Below are positions 4,765 through 32,725 of a DNA stretch of 33,569 nt, piece by piece. The stretch spans positions 1 to 33,569 of IMG/VR virus record IMGVR_UViG_3300044678_002246, one strand, 5' to 3'. A model generated the notes under the pieces. That model ran no database searches. It was not told where the DNA came from and worked only from the letters and a program-made list of their open reading frames with translations. The DNA is from a virus. Numbering within the stretch: the first letter of the stretch is position 1; every line of letters starts with the position of its first letter. The position numbers were made by a program, and so were the translations under genes.

Positions 4765-4824
4765 ATGGGATGTGGCTGCGGAAGTAAGAAGAAACCGAAG
4801 GGCGGCAAGGGCGGAACAAAATGA
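4765..4824 (+). CDS. Cys-Gly-Lys microprotein (19 aa) between portal and protease
   Basis: The complete product is MGCGCGSKKKPKGGKGGTK. It has a very good ribosome binding site (AAAGGAG at 4752-4758) six bases before ATG 4765. Its stop overlaps the ATG of the protease gene (ATGA at 4821-4824). Such spacing and coupling argue that it is translated, although it could also act only as a leader that sets translation of the protease. The GCGCG start could bind metal or be acylated; the tail is strongly basic. No family is recognised, and its size hides it from ordinary gene callers. Confidence 0.6.
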   Translation: MGCGCGSKKKPKGGKGGTK

Positions 4825-17574: not shown

Positions 17575-20160
17575 ATGAAAACTGTTGATTCTGCAGAGCT
17601 ACTTAAAAGGCACGCTGAGACTTCTCGTTTGAAAAGACGAGAAAATCGAGCAAGCAATGTTCAAGAGCCTCCGTTGCAGAAATCTAAAGGCGTCGGAACA
17701 GTCCTATCGTCAATCTTCAGCACCATCGGGATTGTGGCATCGGAGGGTTGTAGTTGCAGGCGGCACGCAGTGGAGATGGATCGACGTGGCACGAAGTGGT
17801 GTCTTGAAAACATAGACACAATCGTGGGATGGCTGCAAGAAGAAGCTGTCGCAAGAAAACTGGTGTTCTTTCGTGCTGGTGTAAAGATTGCCTTGTATTC
17901 ATTACTTAAAAGCTATTCGATATTTGAAAATGTTCGTCCGGACAGCGGCGATGACAGCAGGGTCTTCAGCAGGCGCGACGACGAATGGGCAGTCGCAGTC
18001 ACGGCAGCACCGCGAGCCGGAGAATACACTCTTGCCAAATGCCTGCATTCAATCATTGCGGCTGGCTGGAGCGACCCTGTTGTCTTCGCAGAGCCTGGTA
18101 TCGAGGTGCCTGAAGGAATAACCACATTCCACAACCAAGAACGACGAGGCTGCTTTCACAACTGGCTTCACAGTGCAAAATGGGCACTCGAAAACACCAC
18201 AGCGGAAATGATCCTGTGCGTTCAAGACGACTCTCTGTTCCACCCGGACAGCAGGCAGTTCACTGAGGATCACTGCTTGTGGCCCAGTGATGACACTGGG
18301 ATTGTCAGTCTCTACACTGCCTCGCACTACCAAAGCGAAAAAGGGGTGATGAAAGCAGTCGGGATTAACGAAGTCTACACGGGCGTATGGTGGGGCACCT
18401 GTGCTGTTGTTTGGAGGAGATCCGCACTTGAGGCAGTGGTCAACCATGAGATAACAAAAAACTGGCTGGGTATTTCACCACGGAAACAGGCTGATGAAAC
18501 CCACAACCCTAAACTGCGAGCAAAAAGGGTCGCTGATTATTTTGAAGGAAGGAAAAAGCAGCCGCACCTAATCAACAACAGTGACTACGTCGCTGGGCAT
18601 GTTCTCAACCTGCTTGGCTTCCGGAAGTTCTTCGTAGACCCATCGCCAGTATCGCACATTGCCAAAGTCTCAACAATAAATCACGGAGGGAATAGCGGCA
18701 AGAGGAATTGCGCACGATGTGCAGACCACAAAAAACCACTCATGTCTCAGGTTGGGACAGTTATCAACAGGATTGAAAAGGAAGAAGACATTATGGCATC
18801 AGGAAGAGGACCAAGGCCAGCAGGAGAGTCGCTAATCATAACTCCGGGACCATCAGTTGGCGCAGTGCCGAAACATACGTTTCTGATAAGGACTTCGTTT
18901 CGAGATCCAATAGTGTCGGCCTACAGATGGAACGTCACTCAGCATACGTTGCTCAAGTCGCTCGCATCTCAAAACAACAAAGACTTTGAGATTCAATTGA
19001 TTTGCGGAGATGATGACCCGCTGCGTGAGGTTAAGTTAGCGGCATTCAGTGAAGTTGCCCCGACAACAATTGCCCCGAAGGACTGGTACAACCAGCCACA
19101 CGACGGGGTATGGAGAAGAACAACCCGAGTCGATGACGACGACATGCTGTCGATCCGGTTCGTAGAGCTTCTGGCAGAGCAGCCGTTTGACGGAACCGAA
19201 TGCTTATTCAACTTCCCGATCGGATGCCTATGGTCAGAGGGGGTATCACATCGCTGGAATTACCCAGTGAACCAGTTCATTACCATTCAGACGAACACGC
19301 GACTGACTCCGTATCATTTTGCGCATCAGTACTATCAGCAACTCCTGCCTGTTGTTATCGTGACCGAGGAGATCCACTGGATGTGGATCAGGCACCACGG
19401 GGTACTCAGTGGGGCAACACCGGGAGCAATTCCGAAGCGGTTTACGCATGGCGTGATACAGACAAACGCAAGTCTGTTCCCGTATGACTTTGCGACCATC
19501 AAAACTGCTCTAGTCCATGATAATTCTGCAGTTGTAAAAGTATTGGAATTGCGCGCAAAGTACGGACGAGTTGACAAAGATGTACTCAACATCTGCGCAA
19601 ACGCGACTGATGAGTTAACAACACTTGCAGCGACTTACGGAACTGACAAAGGTGTCACTGGGACTCCAGACAAAAACCATCAGTACACGCTGGTCTACGA
19701 TCGCCTGTTTAAGGGGATGCGAGACCAGGTCGAACACGTCCTTGAATTCGGCGTGGGCACCGGCGCAAGTCTTCGAATGTGGGCAGACTATTTCCCTAAA
19801 GCGATGATTCACGGGCTGGACGTTAAGCGAAGAAGTGTGCCACATCCTCGGATCGTAACACACAGGTTTAACTCCATAACCCCGCTTGACACACACTTCA
19901 AGTTCTCATTGGTGATTGACGACGCGAGTCACATATCGAGTCACCAAAGAGTCATGTTCGAACTGCACAGCAAACATGTCAAGCCAGGAGGGTTCTATAT
20001 AATTGAAGACCTTCATGCCTGCAGACTGGGTGGCAAGTACTTAAACGAATCTCCATCCATGCTTGAAACGTGTCGTGAATGGGTGTCCAATCCGCCGTTC
20101 GGCTGGAGGTGCCAGCTTTACGGCGACCAGTTGTGCGTGCTTCAGAAAGATGAAGTGTGA
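17575..20160 (+). CDS. Trimodular glycosyltransferase - rhamnosyltransferase-like - methyltransferase fusion (861 aa)
   Basis: Residues 1-100 have a small Cys motif (GCSCRRHAVEMDRRGTKWC). Residues ~136-385 are a GT-A-like domain with a QDDS acidic motif at 217-220 and a conserved LWPSDDTGIVSLYTASHY. Residues ~430-650 resemble putative rhamnosyltransferases (FLIRTSFRDP, then RVDDDD at 518-523, then WIRHHG). Residues ~685-861 are a class I SAM methyltransferase with YGTDKG, LEFGVGTGAS (723-732), VIDDASH and GGFYIIEDLH. Each domain has a stand-alone relative downstream (26077, 26849, 22865). The enzyme probably builds and caps a sugar chain in several steps. It opens the sugar cassette 48 bp after the tail genes. 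Confidence 0.85.
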   Translation: MKTVDSAELLKRHAETSRLKRRENRASNVQEPPLQKSKGVGTVLSSIFSTIGIVASEGCSCRRHAVEMDRRGTKWCLENIDTIVGWLQEEAVARKLVFFRAGVKIALYSLLKSYSIFENVRPDSGDDSRVFSRRDDEWAVAVTAAPRAGEYTLAKCLHSIIAAGWSDPVVFAEPGIEVPEGITTFHNQERRGCFHNWLHSAKWALENTTAEMILCVQDDSLFHPDSRQFTEDHCLWPSDDTGIVSLYTASHYQSEKGVMKAVGINEVYTGVWWGTCAVVWRRSALEAVVNHEITKNWLGISPRKQADETHNPKLRAKRVADYFEGRKKQPHLINNSDYVAGHVLNLLGFRKFFVDPSPVSHIAKVSTINHGGNSGKRNCARCADHKKPLMSQVGTVINRIEKEEDIMASGRGPRPAGESLIITPGPSVGAVPKHTFLIRTSFRDPIVSAYRWNVTQHTLLKSLASQNNKDFEIQLICGDDDPLREVKLAAFSEVAPTTIAPKDWYNQPHDGVWRRTTRVDDDDMLSIRFVELLAEQPFDGTECLFNFPIGCLWSEGVSHRWNYPVNQFITIQTNTRLTPYHFAHQYYQQLLPVVIVTEEIHWMWIRHHGVLSGATPGAIPKRFTHGVIQTNASLFPYDFATIKTALVHDNSAVVKVLELRAKYGRVDKDVLNICANATDELTTLAATYGTDKGVTGTPDKNHQYTLVYDRLFKGMRDQVEHVLEFGVGTGASLRMWADYFPKAMIHGLDVKRRSVPHPRIVTHRFNSITPLDTHFKFSLVIDDASHISSHQRVMFELHSKHVKPGGFYIIEDLHACRLGGKYLNESPSMLETCREWVSNPPFGWRCQLYGDQLCVLQKDEV

Positions 20161-20891
20161 TGGAGGGGGTAAACGCAGTCGCTGCCATGAAGACGTACAG
20201 CAGCGACGATAACGCTTCTGATCGCGAAGATATTCGCAGGGCAGTCACCACGTACCAGAATACGTGTGGCTTGCCGTTGCATGTGTTCGACGATAACTCA
20301 TGCCCGACGTATGTCGAGTATTTGAAGGGATTCAAGGGTGTTTTTCTCCACACGCACGAGGAGAATGTTGGGCCAACTGAGAACAGCAATCGCTGCATGA
20401 GTCTGTTCAAACAGTATCACGAGATCGATGCGTTGATCCTGCTGGATGACGATATCGAGTTCCTGAAGCCTGGCTGGTCAGACCTATACCTCAATGCCCT
20501 CTCAGACGAAGTTCAGCTACTGTCATTCAATGACAAAGAAATCACGCAGTCACCCGGTGTCGCGCACGGCAACTACTCACTTTCGCAATGGAGTTGTGGG
20601 GTTTGCGTGACATTGACGCGGCACTGCTGGATGAAAGCTGGAACATATGGACCATTCCCGGAAAAGTATGGATGGTGCCATATTGAGTACAACTGGCGAT
20701 GTGCGTTACTTGGGCTCATCCCAATGGATGGGTTCTATGATGTACCTGCAATCCATGACTACATAAAGATTTCCTCTTACTCAGGAAGCGAAGAAAAGCT
20801 GCGTCAAATCGAAGTCAACGGTTTATCAGAAACAGTTGTGACAACAATGGAAAAGTACAAAGCCATGAGAATGAAAATGGGCATAGCATGA
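20160..20891 (+). CDS. GT-A type glycosyltransferase (243 aa)
   Basis: The acidic motif LLDDDIEFLKPGW (residues 94-106) is the nucleotide-sugar/metal site of GT-A enzymes. The N-terminal part (LPLHVFDDNSCPTYVEYL) supplies the UDP-binding type strand and DD pair. The C-terminal part has FPEKYGWCHIEYNWRC, like an acceptor-side motif. I chose ATG 20160 (TGATG overlap with the previous stop). A GTG at 20157 adds only one Met. Sugar donor and acceptor cannot be told from sequence. Confidence 0.8.
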   Translation: MEGVNAVAAMKTYSSDDNASDREDIRRAVTTYQNTCGLPLHVFDDNSCPTYVEYLKGFKGVFLHTHEENVGPTENSNRCMSLFKQYHEIDALILLDDDIEFLKPGWSDLYLNALSDEVQLLSFNDKEITQSPGVAHGNYSLSQWSCGVCVTLTRHCWMKAGTYGPFPEKYGWCHIEYNWRCALLGLIPMDGFYDVPAIHDYIKISSYSGSEEKLRQIEVNGLSETVVTTMEKYKAMRMKMGIA

Positions 20892-21301
20892 CCAAGGTCT
20901 ACACGGGCGGAACTTTCGATCTGTTTCATGCAGGGCATGTGCGATTCCTTCGTCGGTGTGCAGATATTGGGTCTGTGACGGTTTCGGTAAACACAGATAA
21001 CTTTGTATTGCGGTATAAAGGAAGAGCCCCTGCCATCAATCTGGAAGAACGCATTATCGTCCTTGAGGCGTGTCGCTGGGTATCACAGGTTGTGGTGAAT
21101 GAAGGCGATGAAGATTCAAAAGCCGCAATTGACAAGGTCAATCCTGACGTGATTGCGGTCGGTTCCGACTGGCAGTCAAAAGACTACTGCCGGCAGATGG
21201 GTTTCACATCAGAATGGTTGGAAGCCAGAAACATTGCACTGGTATACCTGCCCTATACGGATGGAATTTCATCAACCTTGATTAAAGAGAGAATGCAATG
21301 A
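20888..21301 (+). CDS. TagD-like cytidylyltransferase (137 aa)
   Basis: This is a nucleotidyltransferase of the HxGH superfamily: GGTFDLFHAGH at residues 7-17 (with the HAGH signature at 14-17) and the C-terminal ISST signature at 127-130 (DGISSTLIKER). The 137-aa length is that of glycerol-3-phosphate cytidylyltransferase, which makes CDP-glycerol for teichoic acid. The same scaffold also makes CDP-ribitol, CDP-ethanolamine or ADP-heptose, so the substrate is open. In a glycosyltransferase cassette it suggests that the glycan carries an activated alcohol-phosphate. Start and stop overlap both neighbours by 4 bases. Confidence 0.88.
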   Translation: MTKVYTGGTFDLFHAGHVRFLRRCADIGSVTVSVNTDNFVLRYKGRAPAINLEERIIVLEACRWVSQVVVNEGDEDSKAAIDKVNPDVIAVGSDWQSKDYCRQMGFTSEWLEARNIALVYLPYTDGISSTLIKERMQ

Positions 21302-21960
21302 TTCACATTCTGATGCCGACCCGAAACAAGCCTGAAGAAATCAACAGAGTGTGCAGCGAGTTAAGCGGATCGGAGTGTCGTCTGTGGCTTTATGTAGCAG
21401 ATGATGACCCGAAATTGGATGAATACAAATCATTGCGTTTGCCGACTGCTGCAACAGTCGTCTTCGGAACACCACTGGGGTTCAGTCGCGGAGTGAATCA
21501 TCTTGCGAGCATTGCAGCGAAACAGCCAAACGCGACCATGCTCATGCGTGCCGAGGATGACTTTTATTTCAAGCCGGGGTGGGATAAAAAATACAAAGAA
21601 GCCATGTGGAAAGACGGCGTCGGAATGGTATGGTGTAATTATGTGATGAAGGGGCCGGAAGCAGAGCCACACACGGCGGCGATAGGACTTGGGTGGTATC
21701 GTGCGCTTGGATGGTTTTCGTTGCCTGGCGTCCAGCACCACTACTGTGATAATGTGTTGCGAGAAATTGCTGAGGCCGCTGGTCGCAGCAGATACATCCC
21801 AGAGCCGATGATTGAGCATCGGCACAACCTCAAAGATCCAAGAAAGTGTGGGCATGGCCAGCAAATCTATGATGCAGACAAAAAAAGGTATGATCAGTGG
21901 CAGCATGGCGAAAAAGCAGACGACTGCAGACGAATTCTCGAAGCTCGACATGGAGTCTAG
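21298..21960 (+). CDS. GT-A type glycosyltransferase (220 aa)
   Basis: The N-terminus IHILMPTRNKPEEI is the canonical start strand of family-2-like enzymes. VADDDP (33-38) and RAEDDFYFKPGW (84-95) are the two acidic motifs expected for nucleotide-sugar and metal binding. AEDDFYFKPGW closely resembles LLDDDIEFLKPGW in the gene at 20160, so these two are probably related copies with different specificity. The C-terminus is basic and helical (DADKKRYDQWQHGEKADD). Its 3' end overlaps the next small gene by 56 bases. Confidence 0.8.
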   Translation: MIHILMPTRNKPEEINRVCSELSGSECRLWLYVADDDPKLDEYKSLRLPTAATVVFGTPLGFSRGVNHLASIAAKQPNATMLMRAEDDFYFKPGWDKKYKEAMWKDGVGMVWCNYVMKGPEAEPHTAAIGLGWYRALGWFSLPGVQHHYCDNVLREIAEAAGRSRYIPEPMIEHRHNLKDPRKCGHGQQIYDADKKRYDQWQHGEKADDCRRILEARHGV

Positions 21961-22108
21961 CCTGATTGCGGGCGAGATGATGATCAGGGTTCGCGTGACT
22001 GACGGCAAAGTGCTGACACGAGTCCAGACAAAAGAATTCCCCAACGCGGACATCGCAATCGCGGCAAAGTCCATTGAAGAACAATTGGCGACTCTGTACG
22101 CCACATAG
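21905..22108 (+). CDS. Small protein of unknown function inside the sugar cassette (67 aa)
   Basis: ATG 21905 begins MAKKQTTADEFSKLDMESS, but no strong ribosome binding site is visible, and the frame overlaps the end of the previous gene. The protein then reads IAGEMMIRVRVTDGKVLTRV and ends with a helix (DIAIAAKSIEEQLATLYAT). It looks like a compact beta-beta-alpha unit. An upstream in-frame ATG (21812) would bury the start inside the previous gene. No family is recognised; a chaperone or adaptor for the glycosyltransferases is only a guess. Confidence 0.5.
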   Translation: MAKKQTTADEFSKLDMESSLIAGEMMIRVRVTDGKVLTRVQTKEFPNADIAIAAKSIEEQLATLYAT

Positions 22109-22128
22109 TATTGATCGCGGCGAAATCA

Positions 22129-22863
22129 ATGACCCAGTTCGTCTACCTCAACGTCATCGGTCCCGACAACGGCGAAGAACTCCGGTTGTCGATGGCATCC
22201 GTGCGGAAGAACTTCACAGGATCGTCGACCTTCACGATCATCGGTGAAAAGCCGAAGTGGTACGACGGTCACCACATTCCCGCTTCGCGACTGACGAAGA
22301 TGCGGGAACTTCCCGGACGCATGACATTCCGCGACACGCAGGCAAAGATCATGCTGGCAGCGTCTCATCCGGAGATCGATGAAGAGTTCGTCTGGATGAT
22401 GGACGACCAGTTCTTCCTGAAGCCAACGTCACTCGAGGATCTCAGAGTCTTCCGGTATGACCCGTGGTATCGAGTGAATTCGAAGCGCGAGTGGCATCGG
22501 CTGATAAGACTCACGTTTGGCGCGCTGGCTGCAAATGGTCGAGGAAACTTTCAGGCCGGCACTCATCTTCCGCATGTGTTTGAGAAGACGAAGCTACAGG
22601 AGATGTTCGCTGAATACGGGTTCCCGAATAACTTGTACCTGTTCGAAATACTGTACGAAAATCATTGGCAATGTGGTCGCACGCCGATACCTTACGGCAG
22701 TACATGGCAGGGGGTTCAGTATCCGCAGTTTCTCAAGAGATTGCTGAGACCGCTGATGACTCGCCAGTTGAACGAGATTGATGCCAATGTGCTGAATTAC
22801 CAGAGCAGCGTATGGAGGCCGACCATGCGAGATTGGCTGAGAGGTCGGTTTACGGAGGAATGA
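22129..22863 (+). CDS. Stealth-like or GT-A-like sugar transferase (244 aa)
   Basis: The protein begins MTQFVYLNVIGPDNGEELRLS, then VRKNFTGSSTFTIIGEKPKW, then FRDTQAKIMLAA, and EEFVWMMDDQFFLKP with DD at residues 92-93. The order (first strand, a GE-KPxW turn, an FRDxxxK helix and an M-DD-FF strand) recalls the conserved regions of Stealth proteins, which transfer hexose-1-phosphate, though the match is by eye. If right, it would fit with the cytidylyltransferase in making phosphodiester-linked sugars. An upstream TTG (22111) is rejected in favour of ATG 22129. Confidence 0.65.
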   Translation: MTQFVYLNVIGPDNGEELRLSMASVRKNFTGSSTFTIIGEKPKWYDGHHIPASRLTKMRELPGRMTFRDTQAKIMLAASHPEIDEEFVWMMDDQFFLKPTSLEDLRVFRYDPWYRVNSKREWHRLIRLTFGALAANGRGNFQAGTHLPHVFEKTKLQEMFAEYGFPNNLYLFEILYENHWQCGRTPIPYGSTWQGVQYPQFLKRLLRPLMTRQLNEIDANVLNYQSSVWRPTMRDWLRGRFTEE

Positions 22864-22864
22864 G

Positions 22865-23365
22865 ATGGGACTGCCATCAGAAGAACTTAATAGGTTTGGG
22901 TCTGACAAGTGTTCTGTTCACAGTTACGGCGCGTTTTATGACCAGCTTTTTGCTTCAAGGCGGTTCGAATGTCTCGTTGAGATAGGGGTAGAATCCGGCG
23001 CAAGCATCAGGGCGTGGCACAACGTCGATCATGAGATGCATGTGATAGGCGTCGATAAGCAAAAGGTCGATGGGCTTAACGTAGTTCAGGCATTCACTCC
23101 CGATTATTTTCCTTTGATGAGGCATCTCGAAAAATTCGATAAGATTCCAGACCTGATTATAGACGACGGATCACACAGGGAGTGGGATCAGGTCTTGGGG
23201 TGGCATTATCTCTCGCCATTTTTGGCCGACGGTGGAGTTTATGTCATTGAAGACATTCCTGATGATAATGTTGTGAATCGATTCCGGTTTTACGGATGGA
23301 CAATAGAAGACTTCAGGCCGACAAGTGGCATCTGGGATGATGTCATTGCATGGAGAATAAAATGA
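22865..23365 (+). CDS. Class I SAM-dependent methyltransferase (166 aa)
   Basis: GGAGG (22854-22858) precedes ATG 22865. The protein has FGSDK..HSYG at the start, the SAM-binding loop VEIGVESGAS (38-47), an acidic strand end IGVDKQK, LIIDDGSH (97-104) and GGVYVIEDI. This is the same order as in the C-terminal domain of the 861-aa fusion (LEFGVGTGAS, VIDDASH, GGFYIIEDL), so the two are homologous. The family includes sugar O-methyltransferases of macrolide type. It probably methylates a hydroxyl on a cassette sugar. Confidence 0.85.
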   Translation: MGLPSEELNRFGSDKCSVHSYGAFYDQLFASRRFECLVEIGVESGASIRAWHNVDHEMHVIGVDKQKVDGLNVVQAFTPDYFPLMRHLEKFDKIPDLIIDDGSHREWDQVLGWHYLSPFLADGGVYVIEDIPDDNVVNRFRFYGWTIEDFRPTSGIWDDVIAWRIK

Positions 23366-24333
23366 GTGGTCTTCTTCCGCAGTTGACAGTCCCAAAATTC
23401 GGCTGGCTCCCGAAAATCAGATACGTGCAAGTCGCAACCCATAGTCGATGCAACGCTGATTGCGTGTTCTGCCCGTATTCTGAATCGGAACACTTTAAGC
23501 ATCCTGGCATGATGAAGGATGATACATGGCATCGCATCCTCGCAAACCTCAGACCATGGACAGACTCGCTGATAAAGTTCTGTCCATACCTGATGCAGGA
23601 GCCACTGATCGATAAATCGATCTTCGCGAAGATTGAGGACATCTACCGATGCTTTCCGAATATCGCCGTTGAGGTCTCGACGAACGGCGCGGCATTGACT
23701 GAGACGACTGCTGAAAAGTTGTTCGCAAACTTCAAGGGCAGGAAGCACGAGATCTGGGTCAGCCATCACGGAATCAACGAAGAGACGCTGCACCACATCA
23801 TGCAGATCGACTATCAGAAGTCGACAGAGAATCTGATTCGGCTGCTGAAGATGTCGGACGGAAGATTCAAGATCCGTATCCGTGGCGCTGGGCGATCAAA
23901 GGCTGTCGATAAGATCTATTTTACTAACCAGCAATACGTTGACTACTGGGAGGAAATGTTCAACAAGCACTCGATCAACAGAAAGAATGTGTCCGTTGAT
24001 TCGTTTGAGTTTCATGATCGCGCCGGAACTCTCTTTCGCGAAGACCGTGGAGCCTGTGACTTAAACAAAGGCAAGGTCCGCGACATTGGACCGGGGCACG
24101 AGAAGTTTCACTGTTCAAGAATCGACGAGTGGGTTCACTTTATGCATGATGGATCGATGCGGTTGTGCTGCATGGACTATCACAACGAAGTTAAGCTGCC
24201 AAACATAAACGACATAGGCCTGCTTGATTACTTCCACTCCTCTGAGTATCGCGAACTTGTCATGAAGGTTCGGGGAGACATCGAATCAGAAGAGAACTTT
24301 ATTTGCAAAAGATGCACGAGCCCAGGGGGTTAA
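23362..24333 (+). CDS. Radical SAM enzyme with SPASM-like C-terminal cysteines (323 aa)
   Basis: Cys30, Cys34 and Cys37 form CNADCVFC, the CX3CX2C site that holds the [4Fe-4S] cluster for SAM cleavage. The N-terminal strand (RYVQVATHSRC) and VEVSTNGA (104-111) are the standard barrel motifs. The C-terminal part has Cys232, Cys251, the pair Cys269-Cys270 and CKRC (315-318), with HDGSMRLCC between, matching a SPASM/twitch auxiliary cluster domain. Known members modify peptides or sugars (for example epimerise or dehydrogenate). In a glycosyltransferase cassette a sugar or glycopeptide substrate is likely, but not shown. Start overlaps the methyltransferase stop (ATGA). Confidence 0.9.
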   Translation: MSGLLPQLTVPKFGWLPKIRYVQVATHSRCNADCVFCPYSESEHFKHPGMMKDDTWHRILANLRPWTDSLIKFCPYLMQEPLIDKSIFAKIEDIYRCFPNIAVEVSTNGAALTETTAEKLFANFKGRKHEIWVSHHGINEETLHHIMQIDYQKSTENLIRLLKMSDGRFKIRIRGAGRSKAVDKIYFTNQQYVDYWEEMFNKHSINRKNVSVDSFEFHDRAGTLFREDRGACDLNKGKVRDIGPGHEKFHCSRIDEWVHFMHDGSMRLCCMDYHNEVKLPNINDIGLLDYFHSSEYRELVMKVRGDIESEENFICKRCTSPGG

Positions 24334-24335
24334 TC

Positions 24336-25340
24336 ATGGCAGTTAAGTTTCCCGGAAAAGATCACAACAAGAAGCTGAATGGCGGCGCTCCTGCTGGTTG
24401 GGTAATAAAGACTCCGAAGATTCTTCAGCATGAACTGACATCCTCCCCGGCTTCTTTAGTTGGGATTATCTCGACGTGGTTCGATAGCGACATCATCGAA
24501 GCGAACGTCAAGAATTGTTTTAAGCAGGGGTTCGACAGAGTCCTGATACTCGACAATGCTTCTCACGACAAATCAGTGTCTCGGGCAGTCGCTTGCGGCG
24601 CTCAAGTCGGAGAGGTTTACGAAACGGCATTTTACGACGATGATCTTCGCATCGCTAAAGAGAACGATATTGCCAAGACCGCTGTAGAGTCGTCTTCCGG
24701 CGATCTATGGGTTGTTTCGCTTGATGCTGATGAGTTTCTGCATGGATTTGAAGGTTTGACCGTCAAGGAGTCTCTCTGTTCTCTTCCGCAGCAAGTGCGA
24801 ATAATTGGATCCCATGCAGTTGACCTGTATCCGGAATCTCCGGATGCGTACAAAATTGGAGAACATCCGGGAATCTGCATGCCAAACGGATGTTTACGAA
24901 AGGGGGTATTTTGTCCGAATCTGCACTGGAAACATGTTGCGATTCGATACTCAAATGGATTGTTTGACATTGCCCAGACTCGAGGAAACCACATTCCCTC
25001 CGTTTCAAGAGTGAGCCATGCTCCATCTGAGTCGTGCTTTTCTCTTCCGATTATTCACGCACCATTCCGACGATACGAAGACTCAAAGGCGAGGCTCAAG
25101 CGTCTCTGTGGAAAAGACAAGTCGCTTGGCAATAAACCAAGATCGGCAGGCGACGACCAAGTCACAGGGAACATGGGCGCGATCAAAAGATGGAATTGCC
25201 TCGAAGACGTTTACGCTGGACGATGGGACAGGGTTGAGATCCCGCATTGCAGAATGCTGTACGGTCGCGAAGTGACGGGCATTTGCTTGTATCCGTGGAA
25301 GAACTTCTTCAAAGATCTGACGCTGGAATCAATCCTATGA
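24336..25340 (+). CDS. Glycosyltransferase, GT2/GT92-like (334 aa)
   Basis: AGGGGG at 24324-24329 precedes ATG 24336. VGIISTWFDSDIIEANVKNC followed by RVLILDNASHD is the pattern of family-2-like enzymes that scan for a shifted residue and then bind UDP. The acidic motif is SLDADEF (128-134). The C-terminal third is basic (FRRYEDSKARLKRL) with cysteines and probably binds the acceptor. It is the longest single-domain transferase of the cassette. Donor sugar unknown. Confidence 0.82.
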   Translation: MAVKFPGKDHNKKLNGGAPAGWVIKTPKILQHELTSSPASLVGIISTWFDSDIIEANVKNCFKQGFDRVLILDNASHDKSVSRAVACGAQVGEVYETAFYDDDLRIAKENDIAKTAVESSSGDLWVVSLDADEFLHGFEGLTVKESLCSLPQQVRIIGSHAVDLYPESPDAYKIGEHPGICMPNGCLRKGVFCPNLHWKHVAIRYSNGLFDIAQTRGNHIPSVSRVSHAPSESCFSLPIIHAPFRRYEDSKARLKRLCGKDKSLGNKPRSAGDDQVTGNMGAIKRWNCLEDVYAGRWDRVEIPHCRMLYGREVTGICLYPWKNFFKDLTLESIL

Positions 25341-26080
25341 CAGCAATCAAGCCCCGAGGCATCACCGTCTGCGTCGACTACGCCGACATCCTCGCTCTGA
25401 CGCTCCCGTACAACCGGGAGTTCTTCAGCGAGTTCATGGTGGTCACGACGGTCAAGGATCATCAGACAATCCACCTCGCGCAGGAGAACGACTGTCATGT
25501 GCATCTCAGCGATGCTTTTTACGCTCGGGGCGCTGCGTTCAATAAGTTTGCAGCGATGGAAGAAGGGCTTGACGTTTTCGGTCGGCACGACTGGATGTGC
25601 ATCATTGATGCTGACATCGTCATCCCGAAGAACAAACTCGCCTGGGTGCCGAAGATCGGAAAGATCTACACGCCGCATCGCAGGATTCTGCACCAGATCC
25701 CGACGGAGATCCCGGAACATCGCCTATGGAGACAGTCGAAGAGAGCGATGAACAACGAAGAATTCGCAGGCTACTTCCAGTTGTTCCATGCGAGCGATCC
25801 AGTCCTCCAGAAGACTCCGTGGCATGAGACGGATTGGACGTGGGCAGGCGGCGCTGACTCGTTCTTCCATCAGAAGTGGTCAGAGTCGAATAAGGTTCGC
25901 CCACCGTTCGAGGTTCTGCATCTCGGTCCTCCGTTTATCAACTGGTGCGGACGAGTCACTCCGTTTGCAGACGGAACGACACCTGAGAAGGCGATGCTTC
26001 GTAACGAACATCGGATGATGCTGCTGAAGAATCGCCGTGAGAACAAACAGGACCGATACAAAGCGGAGAAGTTGAAGTGA
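25337..26080 (+). CDS. GT-A type glycosyltransferase-like protein (247 aa)
   Basis: ATG 25337 is in an ATGA overlap. The core is ITVCVDYADILALTLPYN, FMVVTTVKDHQT and then CIIDADIVIPKN with DAD at residues 91-93. Conserved-looking residues follow: YFQLFHASDP and WAGGADSFFHQKWSES, then VLHLGPPFINWCGR. These fit the fold of small GT-A enzymes that use a DxD motif. The C-terminus is basic. No closer relative in this window is evident. Confidence 0.75.
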   Translation: MTAIKPRGITVCVDYADILALTLPYNREFFSEFMVVTTVKDHQTIHLAQENDCHVHLSDAFYARGAAFNKFAAMEEGLDVFGRHDWMCIIDADIVIPKNKLAWVPKIGKIYTPHRRILHQIPTEIPEHRLWRQSKRAMNNEEFAGYFQLFHASDPVLQKTPWHETDWTWAGGADSFFHQKWSESNKVRPPFEVLHLGPPFINWCGRVTPFADGTTPEKAMLRNEHRMMLLKNRRENKQDRYKAEKLK

Positions 26081-26886
26081 GAATCTCCGTCGGGATACTG
26101 TCCGCGCCAAGGCCGGAGCCCACGCTCAAAAAATGCTCGCACGCAATCGCTGAGTCTGGCTTTCCTCTCATCCATCACGCGACGGAATCAGACAGCAGGC
26201 ATTTTCTGTCGCCCTGTGAGTTCGAGCGATCACCGACGGGATCTCTGGGCAACTTCCAGAACTGGCTGCAGACTGCCAGGGATCTGCTGACGATGGATCA
26301 CGACGCGATCCTGATCGCCGAGGACGATGCGTTGTTCTGCCGGGACGTGCATGCACTTCTGCAGCGGGATCTCTGGCCTGCGGCTGACTGTGGCTGCGTG
26401 TCGCTGTATTGTCCTGCGATGTCGCATTACAGGCAGAGTTCTTCGGGACTGCACAGAACGCGGATTGCCCGTGCGGAGCCGATGACGAACAGAACGAATC
26501 TCGTCGGTGCGCTGGCTCTTGTGTTTCCTGCGTCGGTGCTGAGAGAACTGGTTTACCACGACTCGATTAGCCAGTGGGGAGGATCTCACATGCAGGCGAG
26601 TAATCCTAAGACAAAGCCATACGAGCGGAAGGCAGTCGACACATGGATTGGCAGAACTCTGATTTCAATGGGTCGATCGATCTGGCATTATTCCCCGAGC
26701 CTCGTGCAGCATTACGTTCCGAATCCGAAAATTGCAAATTCGTCGCTTGGGCATGGAATGGCGATTGGAAACCGCCAGTCGCGATCGTGGGCTGGAAATT
26801 CAAAACGGAGTGTGCTGGAGATGATTCCGGCCAACAAGGAAAAGTTTGATGTCGCAAGTTCCGGTGTACCTGAACATCAGGTCTGA
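26077..26886 (+). CDS. Glycosyltransferase related to the first GT domain of the 861-aa fusion (269 aa)
   Basis: GTG 26077 overlaps the previous stop (GTGA). The order SAPRPEPTLKKCSHAI, GNFQNWLQTARDLL, ILIAEDDALF (78-87), LWPAADCGCVSLY, then SHY and, near the end, HYVPNPKIANSSLGHG follows the fusion protein's AAPR..TLAKCLHSI, GCFHNWLHSAK, ILCVQDDSLF, LWPSDDTGIVSLY, SHY. This is clear homology within one cassette, implying an internal duplication or two uses of one family. The 3' end overlaps the next gene by 38 bases. Confidence 0.82.
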   Translation: MRISVGILSAPRPEPTLKKCSHAIAESGFPLIHHATESDSRHFLSPCEFERSPTGSLGNFQNWLQTARDLLTMDHDAILIAEDDALFCRDVHALLQRDLWPAADCGCVSLYCPAMSHYRQSSSGLHRTRIARAEPMTNRTNLVGALALVFPASVLRELVYHDSISQWGGSHMQASNPKTKPYERKAVDTWIGRTLISMGRSIWHYSPSLVQHYVPNPKIANSSLGHGMAIGNRQSRSWAGNSKRSVLEMIPANKEKFDVASSGVPEHQV

Positions 26887-27565
26887 ATATGCAGAAGCGG
26901 ATAGTTCGAGGTATCGGTTTTCGCTGACTGAGAACATTCTGATCCCAAGCCTGAAGAATCAGGTTGCCCGAGGCGCGATCATCTTCCTGCAGCAGTCTCC
27001 GATGGATCCGTATTTCAAGCGGCGGGAGAAAGCATTTCGATCCATCACGGATAAAGTGATCCCGATGCACGAGAAGGAAGGCATGGAACTGCCGGCTCGC
27101 GTCGAGGCGACGATTGGCGACGACGACTTTCTTGGGCCGGAGTTTGTCCAAAAGATGCGGATGGGCTTTGTGCCAGAGCGCGGAAACGTCCAGATGTTTA
27201 TGCCGCACGGTTACATTTTCTTCGAGGGAGCCCTGCATCCTTGGCGAAACAAGGACGATTTCATTGAGATCACGCAGTACGGCAACCCGAGTTCTTCGGT
27301 GGTTCGGCACGAGGGATTCAGGATTGCGGACACTCCGCAATGGATTTACTGCAGGCATCAGATGAATTTTAACCCGCTTTCGGCTTCAGAAGTTAATGCT
27401 CCTGAGATAAAACTGGCTGCGTGGAAGGGTTGGCAACAGAATATCGTGGTTCGATATTGCCAAACCCAAGTGCTGACGGCGACAGCAAATGGTTGTACTT
27501 TGGAGCCAACTCGATCCAAGGCGATGATGTACGCTAAAGGTTCTGCTCGTAGTCGAAGGAAATAA
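26849..27565 (+). CDS. Putative rhamnosyltransferase-like enzyme (238 aa)
   Basis: ATG 26849 follows AAGGA at 26836-26840. A TTG one codon earlier is less likely. The protein has YLNIRSEYAEADSSRYRFSL, then FLQQSP, an acidic ATIGDDDFLG (87-96), a GYIFFEGALHPW segment and IYCRHQM. It tracks the second domain of the 861-aa fusion (IRTSFRDP..YRWNV, RVDDDDML, WSEGVSHRW, WIRHHG). The family resembles putative rhamnosyltransferases, with the name from similarity only. It is the last enzyme of the cassette. Confidence 0.75.
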   Translation: MSQVPVYLNIRSEYAEADSSRYRFSLTENILIPSLKNQVARGAIIFLQQSPMDPYFKRREKAFRSITDKVIPMHEKEGMELPARVEATIGDDDFLGPEFVQKMRMGFVPERGNVQMFMPHGYIFFEGALHPWRNKDDFIEITQYGNPSSSVVRHEGFRIADTPQWIYCRHQMNFNPLSASEVNAPEIKLAAWKGWQQNIVVRYCQTQVLTATANGCTLEPTRSKAMMYAKGSARSRRK

Positions 27566-27567
27566 TC

Positions 27568-27840
27568 ATGGAATATCTGATTTGCTGGTTAGCGACGTTT
27601 GGGTTTTCATTTACCTTCGCGTTGACCCATGGTCCGCTGGGCCTGTTCAAGGCGATTCGCGAGAAGGCAAAGTCTCGCTTCGGCGAAAAACACTGGGTGA
27701 CAATCGGAGTTGGCTGTCCGGTCTGTGCTTCGTTCTGGATTGCAATTCCGTTCACTATAGCCTCAGATAATGGAGGCATCCTGATGTGGGCGTCAGCGTT
27801 GGGTTTCACCTGCGCTGTGACAAGCATCAGTCCCGATTAA
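27568..27840 (+). CDS. Small membrane protein, DUF1360-like (90 aa)
   Basis: Two hydrophobic segments (YLICWLATFGFSFTFAL and FWIAIPFTIAS) plus a third near the end (MWASALGFTCAVTSI) flank a central VGCPVCASFW with CxxC at residues 50-53. Small phage and bacterial membrane proteins with a C-P-x-C-xx-FW core of this kind are common (DUF1360 type). The call is from this pattern. It is placed two bases after the last transferase, so it belongs to the same transcript and may anchor the cassette enzymes or serve the lysis module. Confidence 0.65.
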   Translation: MEYLICWLATFGFSFTFALTHGPLGLFKAIREKAKSRFGEKHWVTIGVGCPVCASFWIAIPFTIASDNGGILMWASALGFTCAVTSISPD

Positions 27841-27842
27841 GT

Positions 27843-27903
27843 CCACTGCCCGAGCCATCGTGTGATTCCTTCGCACTTCGATGGAGACGCCCTCGGGCAG
27901 TGG
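27843..27903 (+). repeat. 61-nt structured hairpin with a perfect 12-bp outer stem
   Basis: CCACTGCCCGAG (27843-27854) is the exact inverse of CTCGGGCAGTGG (27892-27903). Directly inside, CCATCG (27855-27860) pairs with CGATGG (27879-27884), leaving AGACGCC (27885-27891) as a bulge. The apex GTGTG/CGCAC adds a few pairs. No T-tract follows on the + strand, so it is not a standard intrinsic terminator. It lies between the sugar and lysis modules, in the only sizeable gap there. Confidence 0.8.
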
Positions 27904-27925
27904 CAACTTTACCTTGGAGATAAAC

Positions 27926-28129
27926 ATGAAAAATGCAAGCTGGAAAACAACCGCCGCTGGTATCGTCGCGGCGCTGAGTATTTTGCTTCATCAGGCAAAT
28001 GCATATTTGGATACAGATCCGCAGACAGTGTTTGATCTGACTCAGGTCATTGCTGCTTTTGGGATGCTGTGGATGGGAATTTCTGCTCGGGACAACAACG
28101 TCACGAGCGAACAGGCAAAGGCCAAGTAG
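27926..28129 (+). CDS. Small holin-like membrane protein (67 aa)
   Basis: ATG 27926 has TTGGAGA at 27914-27920. The protein begins MKNASWKTTAAGIVAALSIL, with one hydrophobic helix, then LTQVIAAFGMLWMGISARDN, a second one, and ends NNVTSEQAKAK. The TTxAGI...ARDNNVTSE frame is typical of small phage membrane proteins placed beside lysis genes. Two membrane helices and small size suit a holin. It is called holin-like on topology only. Confidence 0.6.
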   Translation: MKNASWKTTAAGIVAALSILLHQANAYLDTDPQTVFDLTQVIAAFGMLWMGISARDNNVTSEQAKAK

Positions 28130-28153
28130 TTTTACAGTTCAGAAAGGCGTCTC

Positions 28154-28510
28154 ATGAACAATTTGAACAAGCAGGCTCGGCTTGCTGCGGATCGCGTCGA
28201 TCCGTCAGTCGGGTTCGATCCAATCACAATCCTTACGATTATCACTCAGGTTCTTCCTTTTCTGGCGTCGTGCTGGAATCGGAACGACTCTCCGGATCCG
28301 GCGGAATCGCGGAAGAAACTGCAGGCTTACGCGGACAAGAATCCGCAGGCACTACTGAAGCGAACTGCGCGTCGTGTGCGGTCTGAGTCCGACGAGAAAA
28401 TGACGAAACTGGAATCCTTCGATATCGCCAGGGCGATTATTGAGCAGGCATTGTCTGCAGACGACGAGACGGTCGCAGCCTGTTGCGCGGAAGCACCGGA
28501 GGGGCTATGA
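28154..28510 (+). CDS. Hypothetical protein with one possible membrane segment (118 aa)
   Basis: ATG 28154 follows GAAAGGCG. The hydrophobic stretch ITILTIITQVLPFLASCW spans residues 24-41. The rest is charged and helical (SRKKLQAYADKN, KRTARRVRSESDEK, FDIARAIIEQALS). The end AACCAEAPEGL includes the stop overlap with the next ATG (ATGA at 28507-28510). Such small proteins beside holins often have lysis-related or assembly roles, but none can be named here. Confidence 0.55.
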   Translation: MNNLNKQARLAADRVDPSVGFDPITILTIITQVLPFLASCWNRNDSPDPAESRKKLQAYADKNPQALLKRTARRVRSESDEKMTKLESFDIARAIIEQALSADDETVAACCAEAPEGL

Positions 28511-29382
28511 AAGAGTTGATTTTATTCCTGAGTGTCTGCCTTGGTGCGATATTGGCGGCGATTCAGGACGACCCGACGGTTCAGAAACCTGCTCCGGACA
28601 AAATTGATCTGGAGCCACAGATTATCTTCCCGACGATCCCGGTACTCGACGAGGGAAATGTTCCGGAAGAAGATCTCCCTGTTCCTCCTCCGCGCCCGAA
28701 ACGCGGACCGGAGTTCGTCTCGAAGCTGAACGAAGAGACGTGGCTTGTCATCGAGTCACCCGGGCCGCTAATGATCTTCGACTTCCCGGAGGGTTTGGTC
28801 GAGATCGATTCGGACGACGGCGCGAGACCGATGAAGGTCAAGGGAAAGTTCGCTGACGGGACTGGTAAAGTCGAGACTCGCACGTTCACGAGCAAACACC
28901 TTTACTTTGTAAATGCGGTGAAGGCCGGTCAGATGGAGATGCTGATCATCCCCGAGGGAGCGATCAGTAAGACTCAGTCCCAGCGACACAAGATTGTCGT
29001 CATGGGGCAGGGTCCGATTCCTCCTCCAGATCCGGAGCCCGAGCCTGACCCTGACCCGGATCCAATGCCAGTTCCGACCGGGAACGTAGTGATCTCGATT
29101 GTCGAGGATGTTCAGAACAGGAAGCCTGACACGGCGATTCTGTTGAATGCCATGGCGAGTTGGAACTCTCTGAAAGACGCTGGTAACGACTGGCGTCTTT
29201 ATGACGTTGCGACCAGCGAGCCAAAGGGAAAGCAGGCAGTCGAAGATGCGAAGTCTGCTGAACTTCCGGCGATGATCATTCGCGACAAGGAGACCGACAA
29301 GATCCTGCGAGTGATTCCGTTGCCGAAAGATTTCGACTCGCTGAAAAGAATTCTTTCTGAACTGGGGGTGAAAGGTGTCTGA
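28507..29382 (+). CDS. Secreted protein with Pro-rich linker and possible thioredoxin-fold end (291 aa)
   Basis: Residues 1-19 (MKELILFLSVCLGAILAAI) look like a signal peptide or anchor. A beta-rich domain follows (PEFVSKLNEETWLVIESPG) up to a Pro/Asp linker (PPPDPEPEPDPDPDPMPVP, about 173-191). The last ~100 residues (NVVISIVED, ALKx-like helix with WRLYDV, ELPAMIIRDKETDKILRVIP, DFDSLKRIL) recall a thioredoxin fold with its cis-Pro strand but without CxxC. It may be a structural or docking thioredoxin-like domain. ATG 28507 lies in an ATGA overlap. Confidence 0.6.
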   Translation: MKELILFLSVCLGAILAAIQDDPTVQKPAPDKIDLEPQIIFPTIPVLDEGNVPEEDLPVPPPRPKRGPEFVSKLNEETWLVIESPGPLMIFDFPEGLVEIDSDDGARPMKVKGKFADGTGKVETRTFTSKHLYFVNAVKAGQMEMLIIPEGAISKTQSQRHKIVVMGQGPIPPPDPEPEPDPDPDPMPVPTGNVVISIVEDVQNRKPDTAILLNAMASWNSLKDAGNDWRLYDVATSEPKGKQAVEDAKSAELPAMIIRDKETDKILRVIPLPKDFDSLKRILSELGVKGV

Positions 29383-30181
29383 GGAAATCGAACAGATCAT
29401 TGATGAGACTGGCGAGACTCGCCGACTCGGATCTCTGGCTCCTCCGGAGGGATTCGTTTCGGCGTTCAACACGTTTGAGCAGGAACATCCGGTCTGGGAT
29501 GACGCTGACATTAAACGGGTGATTCTGGATGCGAACAGAACTCCGCGCCGGACAGTGTTTACCAAGGAGTGGATTCAGAGCCAGGGCAACTTCGGCTCCT
29601 GCAACGGATACGCTGGCGCTGGTGCCTTGTCAAAGGCCAGATACCTGCGAGGCATTCAGGACAAGCTGAAACTTTCCGGAGCTTTCATCTACTCGCTCAT
29701 TAACGGTGGGCAGGATAACGGGTCTGCTTTGGAAAGCGGCCTGAAGGTCATTGGAACTCACGGGGCTCCTCCAGAGTCATTGGTTCCGTGGAACATGATT
29801 TACCCCAAGCAACAGCCTTCAAACGCCAAGGCGGAAGCCCTGAAGCATCGTGGGCTGAAGTGCTACGCTGTGCAGACGAAACAGGGATTTCGGACGGCTT
29901 TGGCCGCTGGGTTTCCTGTGATCGTTGCTGTTCACGCCGGACGCAATTTCCAGAAAGTGAATGCCCAGGGAATTGCCTCGGCGGATTCCGGCGGCGGCAA
30001 CCATGCGATCCACTGCGACGACATCAGGATCGTTGGCGGGCAGGAAGTTTACGACTCCTGCAATTCGTGGGGCGTGACTTACGGCGATCAGGGTCGGGCT
30101 TTGCTGACGTGGGATTCGTTTGCGCAGACTTTTGGAAGACATCGGTTTTATGCCGTCGCTAGCACCCTTGAGGGGGAGTAG
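29375..30181 (+). CDS. Papain-family (C1-type) cysteine peptidase (268 aa)
   Basis: The catalytic set is in order: Gln70 (oxyanion), Cys76 in NFGSCNGYAG, His210 in GGGNHAIHC and Asn230 in SCNSWG, which is the papain Q-C-H-N layout. The segment SCNGYA replaces the usual SCWAF. The N-terminus (EEIEQIIDETGETRRL) may be a short pro-region. No signal peptide is visible, so release would need a holin or a virion. GTG 29375 overlaps the previous stop by 8 bases. In a phage lysis-like block it could act as an endolysin-type enzyme against a protein-containing wall, or process virion or host proteins. Confidence 0.88.
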   Translation: MSEEIEQIIDETGETRRLGSLAPPEGFVSAFNTFEQEHPVWDDADIKRVILDANRTPRRTVFTKEWIQSQGNFGSCNGYAGAGALSKARYLRGIQDKLKLSGAFIYSLINGGQDNGSALESGLKVIGTHGAPPESLVPWNMIYPKQQPSNAKAEALKHRGLKCYAVQTKQGFRTALAAGFPVIVAVHAGRNFQKVNAQGIASADSGGGNHAIHCDDIRIVGGQEVYDSCNSWGVTYGDQGRALLTWDSFAQTFGRHRFYAVASTLEGE

Positions 30182-30183
30182 TC

Positions 30184-30780
30184 ATGCAAAACGTCGTCTT
30201 TCTGCTTCTGTGCTGTCTTTCCGGGCCTCCGGAGATCTTCTCGGCGACCGGCGTTTACGCTGAAAAACCGAAAGCGACTCAGGATCCGTATCTCATCATG
30301 TTCACAGCAGACTGGTGCGGGCCATGTCGGGCATGGAAGAATTCCGGGAAGAAGAAGCAGATCGAGGAAGCCGGCGTTTCTGTGACGCTCGTTGACATCG
30401 ACAGGAATCCAGAGTACCGGATCGCCGGAGGACCGCTTCCAGCAGTGGAGCTGTTCCCGACGTTCTGGTTAATGGTCCCGCCCAATCAGAAGCCAGTGAA
30501 GGTCTGGGTTGGCACAGTTTCGCACACAGATGTGCGGGCGAATTTGCGGATCAGGAGATCAAAAGATGACCTGGACAAATGGGTTCGCAGCAATTACACC
30601 GAGCGAACCACGTTAAAGATGGGCATGGAAAAGAATGCGGACGTGTATATTCATCTCACGGATGGGACCGGCGGGACGCACGTTTTCACAAAAGAGCAGG
30701 TTTCTGGGCTGGATTTATGGGTTGCTTTGGCACTTCATGACGCTTTGCATTCCGCAAAGATCAGTCCGTTTGTAGACTGA
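30184..30780 (+). CDS. Secreted thioredoxin-like protein (198 aa)
   Basis: The redox motif WCGPC (residues 44-48) follows the strand YLIMFTADWC, with VTLVDIDRNPEY, then PAVELFPTFWLM as the cis-Pro strand, and VWVGTVSHTD. The first ~20 residues (MQNVVFLLLCCLSG) are hydrophobic and likely a signal peptide, so it would act outside the cytoplasm. The last ~90 residues extend beyond the core fold. ATG 30184 is three bases after the peptidase stop. It could keep the active-site Cys of the peptidase reduced, or oxidise and reduce virion cysteines. Confidence 0.85.
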   Translation: MQNVVFLLLCCLSGPPEIFSATGVYAEKPKATQDPYLIMFTADWCGPCRAWKNSGKKKQIEEAGVSVTLVDIDRNPEYRIAGGPLPAVELFPTFWLMVPPNQKPVKVWVGTVSHTDVRANLRIRRSKDDLDKWVRSNYTERTTLKMGMEKNADVYIHLTDGTGGTHVFTKEQVSGLDLWVALALHDALHSAKISPFVD

Positions 30781-30827
30781 GTGTGCGGTTTTCCAAAAAG
30801 CCTGTTTTTGATGCCGGAACGTGAAAC

Positions 30828-31049
30828 GTGAACATATCAGCAGAAGTCATTTTGGGAGTGATCACAGCACTCGGTGCGGTCTTGAGCGGCGCGGTAGGAA
30901 AGATGTGGGTCTGGTTTACGGCTGAGTTAAGGGAGTGCAAGGACGACCGTCGAAACTTGCATGAACGAGTTGAAACAATGCACCAGAACATTGCTGAAAT
31001 CAGCACAACAGTTGGACGGCTTGAAGGCCGATTGAGTGATGACAAATGA
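30828..31049 (+). CDS. Small membrane protein with coiled-coil tail (73 aa)
   Basis: GTG 30828 is the best start in frame, though its ribosome binding site is weak. Residues 5-32 form one hydrophobic helix (VILGVITALGAVLSGAVGKM). A charged coiled coil follows (ELRECKDDRRNLHERVETM, then IAEISTTVGRLEGRL). The topology is like holin-associated or hemolysin XhlA-like proteins, although the order (membrane first) is the reverse of XhlA. The stop overlaps the start of the 31-aa gene (ATGA at 31046-31049). Confidence 0.6.
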   Translation: MNISAEVILGVITALGAVLSGAVGKMWVWFTAELRECKDDRRNLHERVETMHQNIAEISTTVGRLEGRLSDDK

Positions 31050-31141
31050 AAAAGACAGTCAACGTTTTGGCGGTGGTTCTGTCGTGGATTTGGGACGCAA
31101 CGGGCGGGCTGATTTATTCAGTTTGGAAGCAGTTGCAGTAA
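31046..31141 (+). CDS. 31-aa hydrophobic microprotein, possible lysis or membrane peptide
   Basis: ATG 31046 overlaps the previous stop. The product starts MKKTVNVLAVVLSWIWDATG and ends LIYSVWKQLQ. One helix is hydrophobic and Trp-rich, with basic ends, so it can insert in the membrane. Its coupling to the preceding gene and its placement after the membrane and lysis-type genes make it credible. It is too short for normal gene callers. Confidence 0.55.
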   Translation: MKKTVNVLAVVLSWIWDATGGLIYSVWKQLQ

Positions 31142-31189: not shown

Positions 31190-32725
31190 ATGTCTGTCGA
31201 AGCCTTAATCTCAACGCAAGTGATCGATACGACATCGGTCGGCAGGTCTGTTATGACTGCCGCTAATGCCGCTGCTGCACGCACTGCGATCGGGGCTGGA
31301 ACTGGCAGTGGTGACGTTGTTGCGGCGAATAATCTCAGCGACTTGGCTTCGGCAGCAACAGCACGGACTAACCTCGGCCTTGGTACACTCGCAACTCAAT
31401 CGGGTACATTTAGTGGTACGTCATCCGGAACAAACACCGGAGACCAGACTACTGTGAGTGGTAACGCCGGATCAGCTACTGTCCTGCAAACGGCGAGGAC
31501 GATCAACGGAGTCAGCTTCAACGGGTCAGCAAACATAACGGTAACTGCTGCAGGATCTACGTTATCGGATACCGTCACAGTCGCGAAGGGCGGCACTGGA
31601 CTAACCACACTTGGCACAGCATTGCAGGTGCTAAGAGTCAACGCTGGAGCAACGGCATTAGAGTATGCCTCAGCGAGCGGTGGTATCGGTGGAGCGACAG
31701 GGGCAACGGACAATTCGGTTTTGCGAGCGGACGGCACTGGTGGAGCAACGCTGCAAAATTCCGCGTTTGTGATTGCGGACAACGCGACGGCATCGCCGAA
31801 CAACACCGTTAACCATGCTAGTATTCAAGCAACTGGCGGCACGACGAATGTCAGCGTGAGCATCGTGCCTAAAGGGACTGGGGCGTTTTGCTTGCAAGTA
31901 CCGGATAGCGGGACAGGTGGCGGGAATGCACGGGGGGCGAATGCGATTGATCTGCAGACAGTACGAAGTGCGGCATCACAGGTAGCCTCGTCTGCGTTCG
32001 CTATCGCGATTGGTTCGTATTGCACTGCAAGTGGATCGATTAGAGGGAGTTATGCAATAGGGCATTCATCGTCAGCGACAGGCGTGGCATCGACGGCAGT
32101 TGGCGATAATGCGACCGCATCTGGTCAACAGTCGTTAGCCCTCGGATCATACCCGACGGCAAGTGGCATATATGCTACTGCATTACAGTACGCATTTGCG
32201 TCTGGAACCTACAGTTTTGCACATGGATATGACGCTTATGCAGGCGGGACATCTTCTGTCGCATTTGGCCATCAGGTCGATGCTGATCGAGGTTCAATGT
32301 TCGCGTTTGCTAACGGTCGATTTGCGGCGAATGGAGATGCCCAATCTGTGTTTTTTGTGCTTCGAAATAAGACAACCAACAACACGGCAACAACTCTATT
32401 CCTCAACGGTTCAGCGGCTCGCCTGACGATTCCAAGCGGAAAAGTGCTTTCAGCGGTGTGTCGGATTTGCGGCATCAAATCAGATGGTTCTGCGGTTGCA
32501 AATTATGTGCGTCGTGTTGTGATAAAAAACGTCGGCGGCACTACATCACTCGTGGGATCTGTAGAGACGATAGGAACCGATATCGAAGACAACGCGAGCA
32601 CAGACGTTGCGATTACAGCAGACAACACAAATGATGCACTGCAAATCAATGTGACCGGCATCACGGGCGAAACGTGGCGATGGGTGGCCGTCGTCGAGGG
32701 TCTTGAAATAGCTTATGGAGCCTAA
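31190..32725 (+). CDS. Tail fibre with YadA-head-like repeats (511 aa)
   Basis: ATG 31190 is preceded by GGGGAAGTGGGGAAAGC. The N-terminal half is a glycine/threonine-rich fibre (ISTQVIDTTSVGRS, NNLSDLASAATARTNLGLG, a typical phage tail fibre repeat). Residues 266-368 have repeats such as FAIAIGSYCTASG, YAIGHSSSATG, AVGDNATASG and LALGSYPTASG, the 14-residue Hep_Hag/YadA-head pattern that folds as a trimeric beta roll and binds surfaces. The last ~140 residues form a separate C-terminal domain (RNKTTNNTATTLF, ITGETWRWVAVVEGLEI), probably a receptor-binding or capping unit. Its last 11 bases overlap an alternative start (32715) of the next gene. Confidence 0.88.
   Translation: MSVEALISTQVIDTTSVGRSVMTAANAAAARTAIGAGTGSGDVVAANNLSDLASAATARTNLGLGTLATQSGTFSGTSSGTNTGDQTTVSGNAGSATVLQTARTINGVSFNGSANITVTAAGSTLSDTVTVAKGGTGLTTLGTALQVLRVNAGATALEYASASGGIGGATGATDNSVLRADGTGGATLQNSAFVIADNATASPNNTVNHASIQATGGTTNVSVSIVPKGTGAFCLQVPDSGTGGGNARGANAIDLQTVRSAASQVASSAFAIAIGSYCTASGSIRGSYAIGHSSSATGVASTAVGDNATASGQQSLALGSYPTASGIYATALQYAFASGTYSFAHGYDAYAGGTSSVAFGHQVDADRGSMFAFANGRFAANGDAQSVFFVLRNKTTNNTATTLFLNGSAARLTIPSGKVLSAVCRICGIKSDGSAVANYVRRVVIKNVGGTTSLVGSVETIGTDIEDNASTDVAITADNTNDALQINVTGITGETWRWVAVVEGLEIAYGA

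Follow-up and report, generated by a model that had tools for sequence, protein, structure and literature searches.

For tailed phages whose hosts have a wall, an endolysin that digests this wall is generally considered necessary. In the late region described here, the place where such an enzyme is expected is taken by a papain-type cysteine peptidase, which raises the question of how this phage and its relatives leave their hosts. A recognisable lytic protein was found in 97.4% of dsDNA phages in one survey (PMC12596118), which makes genomes lacking one unusual. In an earlier note on this DNA, it was proposed that the peptidase is itself the lytic enzyme and is kept active by its own thioredoxin, which would suit a host with a protein-rich envelope. 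If this is true, the lysis chemistry would be of another kind, acting in hosts whose envelope strength lies in protein. In addition, the gene cassette involved is of small size, is met again in unrelated phages and lends itself to tests by expression.

The window and its relatives

The window, which is the whole stretch of DNA that was analysed, corresponds to a complete IMG/VR virus record of 33,569 bases, which is linear and probably a fragment of a phage genome. Its gene content suggests a tailed phage, of which it would be the late half. A terminase (1440-2855) and a portal (3082-4686) are followed by a protease/scaffold-like protein with weak PHROG matches (4821-5801), and tail genes lie between this protein and a glycan-gene cassette (17575-27565). 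The module of interest comes next, and tail-fibre-like genes start after it at position 31190. The tail-fibre-like product of the gene at 31190-32725 carries YadA head repeats according to Pfam (E 5e-9). The glycan-gene cassette occupies ten kilobases within the late region, contains glycosyltransferase, methyltransferase, radical SAM and nucleotidyltransferase genes and varies strongly in gene content among relatives. This glycosyltransferase-rich cassette is adjoined by a gene (15204-17021) whose product contains Ser/Ala repeats over about 300 residues, which result from 12-base tandem repeats (21.9 copies in positions 16107-16369 alone); the product is possibly a glycosylated virion protein. 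At the contig start, positions 1-127 hold a 43-base unit three times in perfect copies. Three further records (G002, G005 and G012) also break in tandem repeats, which differ from those of the window.

Six contigs with peptidases that are about 90% identical have an unchanged gene order. More distant phages, including G012, G015, G019 and G021, were found by a terminase scan. PF00112 misses remote members of the peptidase family (there is no match in G015, even with the joined gene), and a custom peptidase HMM was therefore used, which revealed C1 homologues in these four phages and in G007. C1 homologues are present in seven lineages: the window group, G012, G019, G021, G007, G015 and LR756511. 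The last of these is a 595-kb huge phage, which has a C1 copy with an upstream thioredoxin-fold partner and also a second, stand-alone C1 peptidase (L118:3348-4133) that resembles the one of Burkholderia phage FLC9. The peptidase of G015 matches a bacterial C1 cysteine protease (PDB 3ois). Scans of genome contigs with the peptidase and the terminase yielded no cellular or prophage relatives, and plasmids and phages gave either no pointers to the host or generic ones. A planctomycete was considered as a candidate host, in view of similar proteins. A 37-kb contig (L029) was rejected as a relative, as its similarity covered 19 residues of a tail fibre and was due to chance. The 56-kb phage genome G002 (L011 and L013) carries about seven HNH/AP2-type homing endonuclease-like genes.

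The papain-like peptidase and its small membrane neighbors

The peptidase gene (29375-30181) and the other genes of the module described below are located on the plus strand. It has a GTG start and overlaps the preceding gene by 8 bases. The product is a C1 (papain) cysteine peptidase by its family and its catalytic residues Q70-C76-H210-N230, has no signal peptide and is predicted to be proteolytically active. Its PF00112 match scores 30.4 bits, compared with a Pfam cut-off of 20.7, it matches PHROG 16701 'peptidase', and its PDB matches include cathepsin K and Der f 1. In the alignment, Q70, C76, N209-H210, N230 and W232 are invariant across homologues down to 27% identity, so that the Q-C-H-N peptidase recognized in the earlier note is well founded. 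All four catalytic residues are also readable in the peptidases of G015 and G021, for both of which the alignment is rough, and PF00112 is above its cut-off in the peptidases of G002, G003, G005, G007 and G012. Comparison of close relatives gave dN/dS values of 0.04-0.11, indicating that the gene is under strong purifying selection and is not a chance reading frame. The structure model of the peptidase is poor (pLDDT 49.6), and the assignment to the C1 family therefore rests on sequence; nonetheless, the best Foldseek matches of the model are all papain-like (Der f 1 and cathepsins, best E 5e-7). A Pfam scan of the protein detected no wall-binding domain and no peptidoglycan-cleaving domain, PF00112 being the sole match and seven muralytic families being negative. 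A wall-binding domain is not present in every endolysin.

Multiple small proteins surround the peptidase. The module starts with a small membrane protein with several hydrophobic segments (27568-27840), which matches phrog_781 (function unknown), has a homologue of 38% identity in G012 and contains a GCPVCASFW motif. This is followed by a small protein with two hydrophobic segments (27881-28129), which is holin-like by size only, and by a 118-aa protein with one N-terminal hydrophobic segment according to its hydropathy (28154-28510). Genes resembling the latter were recognized by eye in G012 (23238-23582) and G021 (17679-17945). At the other end of the module, the 73-aa product of 30828-31049 has a TM segment at its N-terminus, probably contains a coiled coil and is XhlA- or i-spanin-like by shape only. 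A similar protein is encoded in G012 (20168-20533), and G003 has at this place a membrane protein (L015:14200-14820) with a PAS-like sensor domain, as judged by eye. Small membrane or coiled-coil proteins are also found near the peptidase in the smaller phages. Small, hydrophobic proteins thus do flank the peptidase/thioredoxin pair, as had been claimed, but Pfam and PHROG named no holin family among the small proteins of the module, so that the term 'holin-like' describes their size and hydropathy only.

Two thioredoxin-fold partners

The gene directly upstream of the peptidase (28507-29382) starts with ATG at 28507, has a GGAGG-type ribosome site before this start and encodes an exported thioredoxin-fold protein. 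It has a signal-like N-terminus, a beta-sandwich-like region and a Pro-rich linker, and its C-terminal part is a thioredoxin fold that lacks CxxC. The C-terminal domain was modelled with a pLDDT of about 80 and a thioredoxin-like order of strands and helices, and Foldseek matched it to PDB thioredoxins (TMt about 0.6, E 0.01-0.05). No CxxC is present in this protein or in its aligned homologues. A thioredoxin-fold homologue is encoded immediately 5' of the peptidase in six lineages (the window group, G012, G019, G021, G007 and LR756511), in which the ends of the two genes overlap by a few bases or more, and a Pro-rich linker is usual among these exported proteins. In G015, an unrelated lipoprotein occupies the position before the peptidase. 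The most constant partner of the peptidase is this upstream CxxC-less protein, which was not named in the earlier note. Structure prediction in search of a hidden endolysin, which that note had suggested, was run on this protein; it revealed a beta-sandwich and a thioredoxin fold rather than a hydrolase fold, and the protein was rejected as a hidden endolysin.

The downstream gene (30184-30780) starts 2 bases past the peptidase stop and encodes a WCGPC thioredoxin. PF00085 is matched with 33.8 bits against a cut-off of 23.5, and the WCGPC motif and the cis-Pro motif are invariant within the thioredoxins of the window group. Hydropathy places a hydrophobic segment at residues 4-19, without a positive n-region, and the protein is probably exported, as far as can be read from its sequence. 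The thioredoxin recognized in the earlier note is in agreement with these results, and its secretion is probable. The window-type CxxC thioredoxin is confined to the window group, and CxxC counterparts are present in G012 and G015. The counterpart in G012 is an exported WCRNC protein, whose N-terminus is weakly similar to the window thioredoxin (hhalign E 0.0025). This protein (L084:719-1651), whose gene directly follows that of the G012 peptidase, is also fused to a SAM methyltransferase-like domain. In G015, the counterpart is a lipoprotein with CPPC that resembles thioredoxin by this motif only. A Pfam scan recognized neither of these two counterparts as a thioredoxin, and no CxxC protein of this kind was seen in G019, G021 and G007. 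A strict pairing of the peptidase with a CxxC thioredoxin was therefore rejected. The proposal that the peptidase is kept active by its own thioredoxin is not supported in this form, since no CxxC partner was seen in these three lineages and the upstream CxxC-less protein is the constant one.

Search for muralytic enzymes

The window is a 33.6-kb fragment, and near relatives stand in for the rest of the genome. No muralytic family was detected by Pfam and PHROG in the module, in line with the earlier reading that 27568-31141 holds no lysozyme, amidase or transglycosylase motif. Pfam scans also detected no peptidoglycan-degrading domain in 81 proteins of G002, in 70 proteins of G012, in 60 proteins of G015 (among the best 25 of 35 families) and in a second set of 63 proteins of G015, G019 and G021. 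Direct six-frame searches with SLT, Amidase_2, Phage_lysozyme, CHAP, M23, M15_4 and NLPC_P60 each gave matches in none of eight records, while control genomes responded. For G003, the proteins with no counterpart among those scanned were inspected by eye, and none of them resembled a muralytic enzyme.

The completeness of these genomes bears on this result. The 55.6-kb G003 has a 126-base direct terminal repeat, and the ends of the 46.5-kb G015 overlap by 11 bases, with the peptidase frame crossing the junction and all four catalytic residues present. The two records thus seem to represent complete circular genomes, despite their linear IMG/VR class. In addition, G002 and G012 have tandem repeats at both ends. 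The earlier note had left room for a muralytic enzyme elsewhere in the genome; none was detected in the relatives, including two circular and two near-complete genomes.

Proposed role in host lysis and alternative explanations

As no known wall-digesting enzyme is found in two circular relatives, these phages may exit their hosts by cutting protein. There is a reasonable chance, a little short of even, that the region of about 27568-31049 is a late egress (lysis) cassette, in which the envelope-weakening enzyme is the papain-like peptidase and not a peptidoglycan hydrolase. The idea of a protease as the lytic enzyme is in keeping with the purifying selection, the late module rich in membrane proteins, the lack of a detected muralytic enzyme and the occurrence of a C1 domain in an annotated phage endolysin. 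From these we infer a role in lysis that is plausible without being quite probable.

In the proposed mechanism, the peptidase, lacking a signal peptide, would be synthesized in the cytoplasm and released from it by the small membrane proteins. Outside the cytoplasm, it would cut envelope proteins. The exported CxxC-less partner (28507-29382) may bind the enzyme, or may bind or present the substrate, and the CxxC thioredoxin (30184-30780), where present, could reduce the catalytic cysteine or open disulphides of envelope proteins. A peptidase without a signal peptide next to an upstream partner that has one is a pattern as in holin-dependent lysis. A further-reaching and rather unlikely reading is that such lysis cassettes form a family that does without any peptidoglycan hydrolase. 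The papain-like peptidase, presented by its exported, redox-inactive thioredoxin-fold partner and aided in some phages by a reducing thioredoxin, would then take the place of that enzyme, and lysis would come about by proteolysis (and disulphide reduction) in a protein-based layer of the envelope. Against the lysis reading, FLC9 and LR756511 have stand-alone C1 peptidases outside such a cassette. Peptidoglycan is present in most bacteria, including Planctomycetes, which were formerly credited with a protein wall (PMC4432640), and a lone protease may be insufficient to lyse a peptidoglycan-walled cell.

The main rival explanation, itself rather unlikely, is that an unrecognized muralytic enzyme digests the wall and that the C1 peptidase only helps, for example in the removal of envelope proteins or an S-layer or in the processing of lysis proteins of the phage. 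The majority of the proteins encoded by these genomes match no family, and a muralytic fold could go unnoticed among them, which also weighs against the lysis reading, and the C1 domain in the endolysin of Alicyclobacillus phage MMB025 accompanies glycosidase-like and PG-binding domains and replaces neither. However, the seven families and Pfam gave no match in the two circular and two near-complete genomes, and the modelled folds of the exported partner at 28507-29382 are not those of a hydrolase.

It is improbable that the C1 peptidase is a papain-type peptidoglycan endopeptidase that cuts stem or cross-bridge peptides and is itself the endolysin. Within the wider papain-like group, such peptides are cleaved by CHAP and NlpC/P60 enzymes, phage lysins occur in other papain-like families (PMC10318531), and both the position within the module and the fusion of C1 to wall-directed domains in MMB025 would fit. 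However, C1 is distinct from CHAP and NlpC/P60, for which both searches were negative, the PDB matches are true proteases such as cathepsins, and the peptidase lacks a wall-binding domain.

A virion or virion-maturation protease, i.e., a tail-associated entry enzyme or an assembly protease, is more improbable still. Maturation proteases are common in phages, and the peptidase adjoins tail-fibre genes in the window, G015 and G019, but a capsid-type protease/scaffold candidate, with its weak PHROG matches, is already present at 4821-5801, and the tight coupling to exported thioredoxin-fold proteins is unlike a cytoplasmic assembly protease. Finally, a cytoplasmic host-takeover or anti-host protease unconnected with egress would agree with the missing signal peptide and with the stand-alone C1 genes of jumbo phages outside lysis-like regions, but is hardly credible given that the pairing with an exported protein and nearby small membrane proteins is conserved across unrelated phages.

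Comparison with known systems

The window enzyme resembles other members of peptidase family C1 (papain; PF00112), such as xylellain and the cathepsins, in its Q-C-H-N residues, its NSWG motif, its Pfam score over the cut-off and its cathepsin fold matches. Unlike these peptidases, it is phage-encoded, has no recognized pro-region or signal peptide and is accompanied by an exported thioredoxin-fold partner. The stand-alone C1 peptidases of jumbo phages, gp163 of Burkholderia phage FLC9 and the second copy of LR756511, are similar in enzyme family and size but have no thioredoxin-fold partner or membrane genes directly alongside.

Canonical holin-endolysin-spanin cassettes of dsDNA phages are likewise late clusters in which genes for small membrane proteins stand with an enzyme that has no signal peptide and with exported partners that contain Pro-rich linkers. 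They differ in that the window module contains no muralytic enzyme and no recognized holin or spanin family, and instead combines a protein peptidase with thioredoxin-fold partners. Methanogen viruses lyse their hosts, whose envelope is unusual, with cysteine peptidases, the pseudomurein endoisopeptidases PeiW and PeiP. These belong to another peptidase family than C1 and cut pseudomurein.

The closest annotated counterpart in terms of lysis is the 'endolysin' of phage MMB025 (XXN61434.1), which has an N-terminal C1 domain of the same kind with 26% identity. In this protein, an Rv2525c-like glycoside hydrolase-like domain and PG_binding_1 follow the C1 domain in one polypeptide, whereas the window peptidase stands alone and has no wall-directed domains. 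This fusion ties the C1 enzyme type to the host wall, but in MMB025 the C1 domain is found in addition to the wall-directed domains and not in their place.
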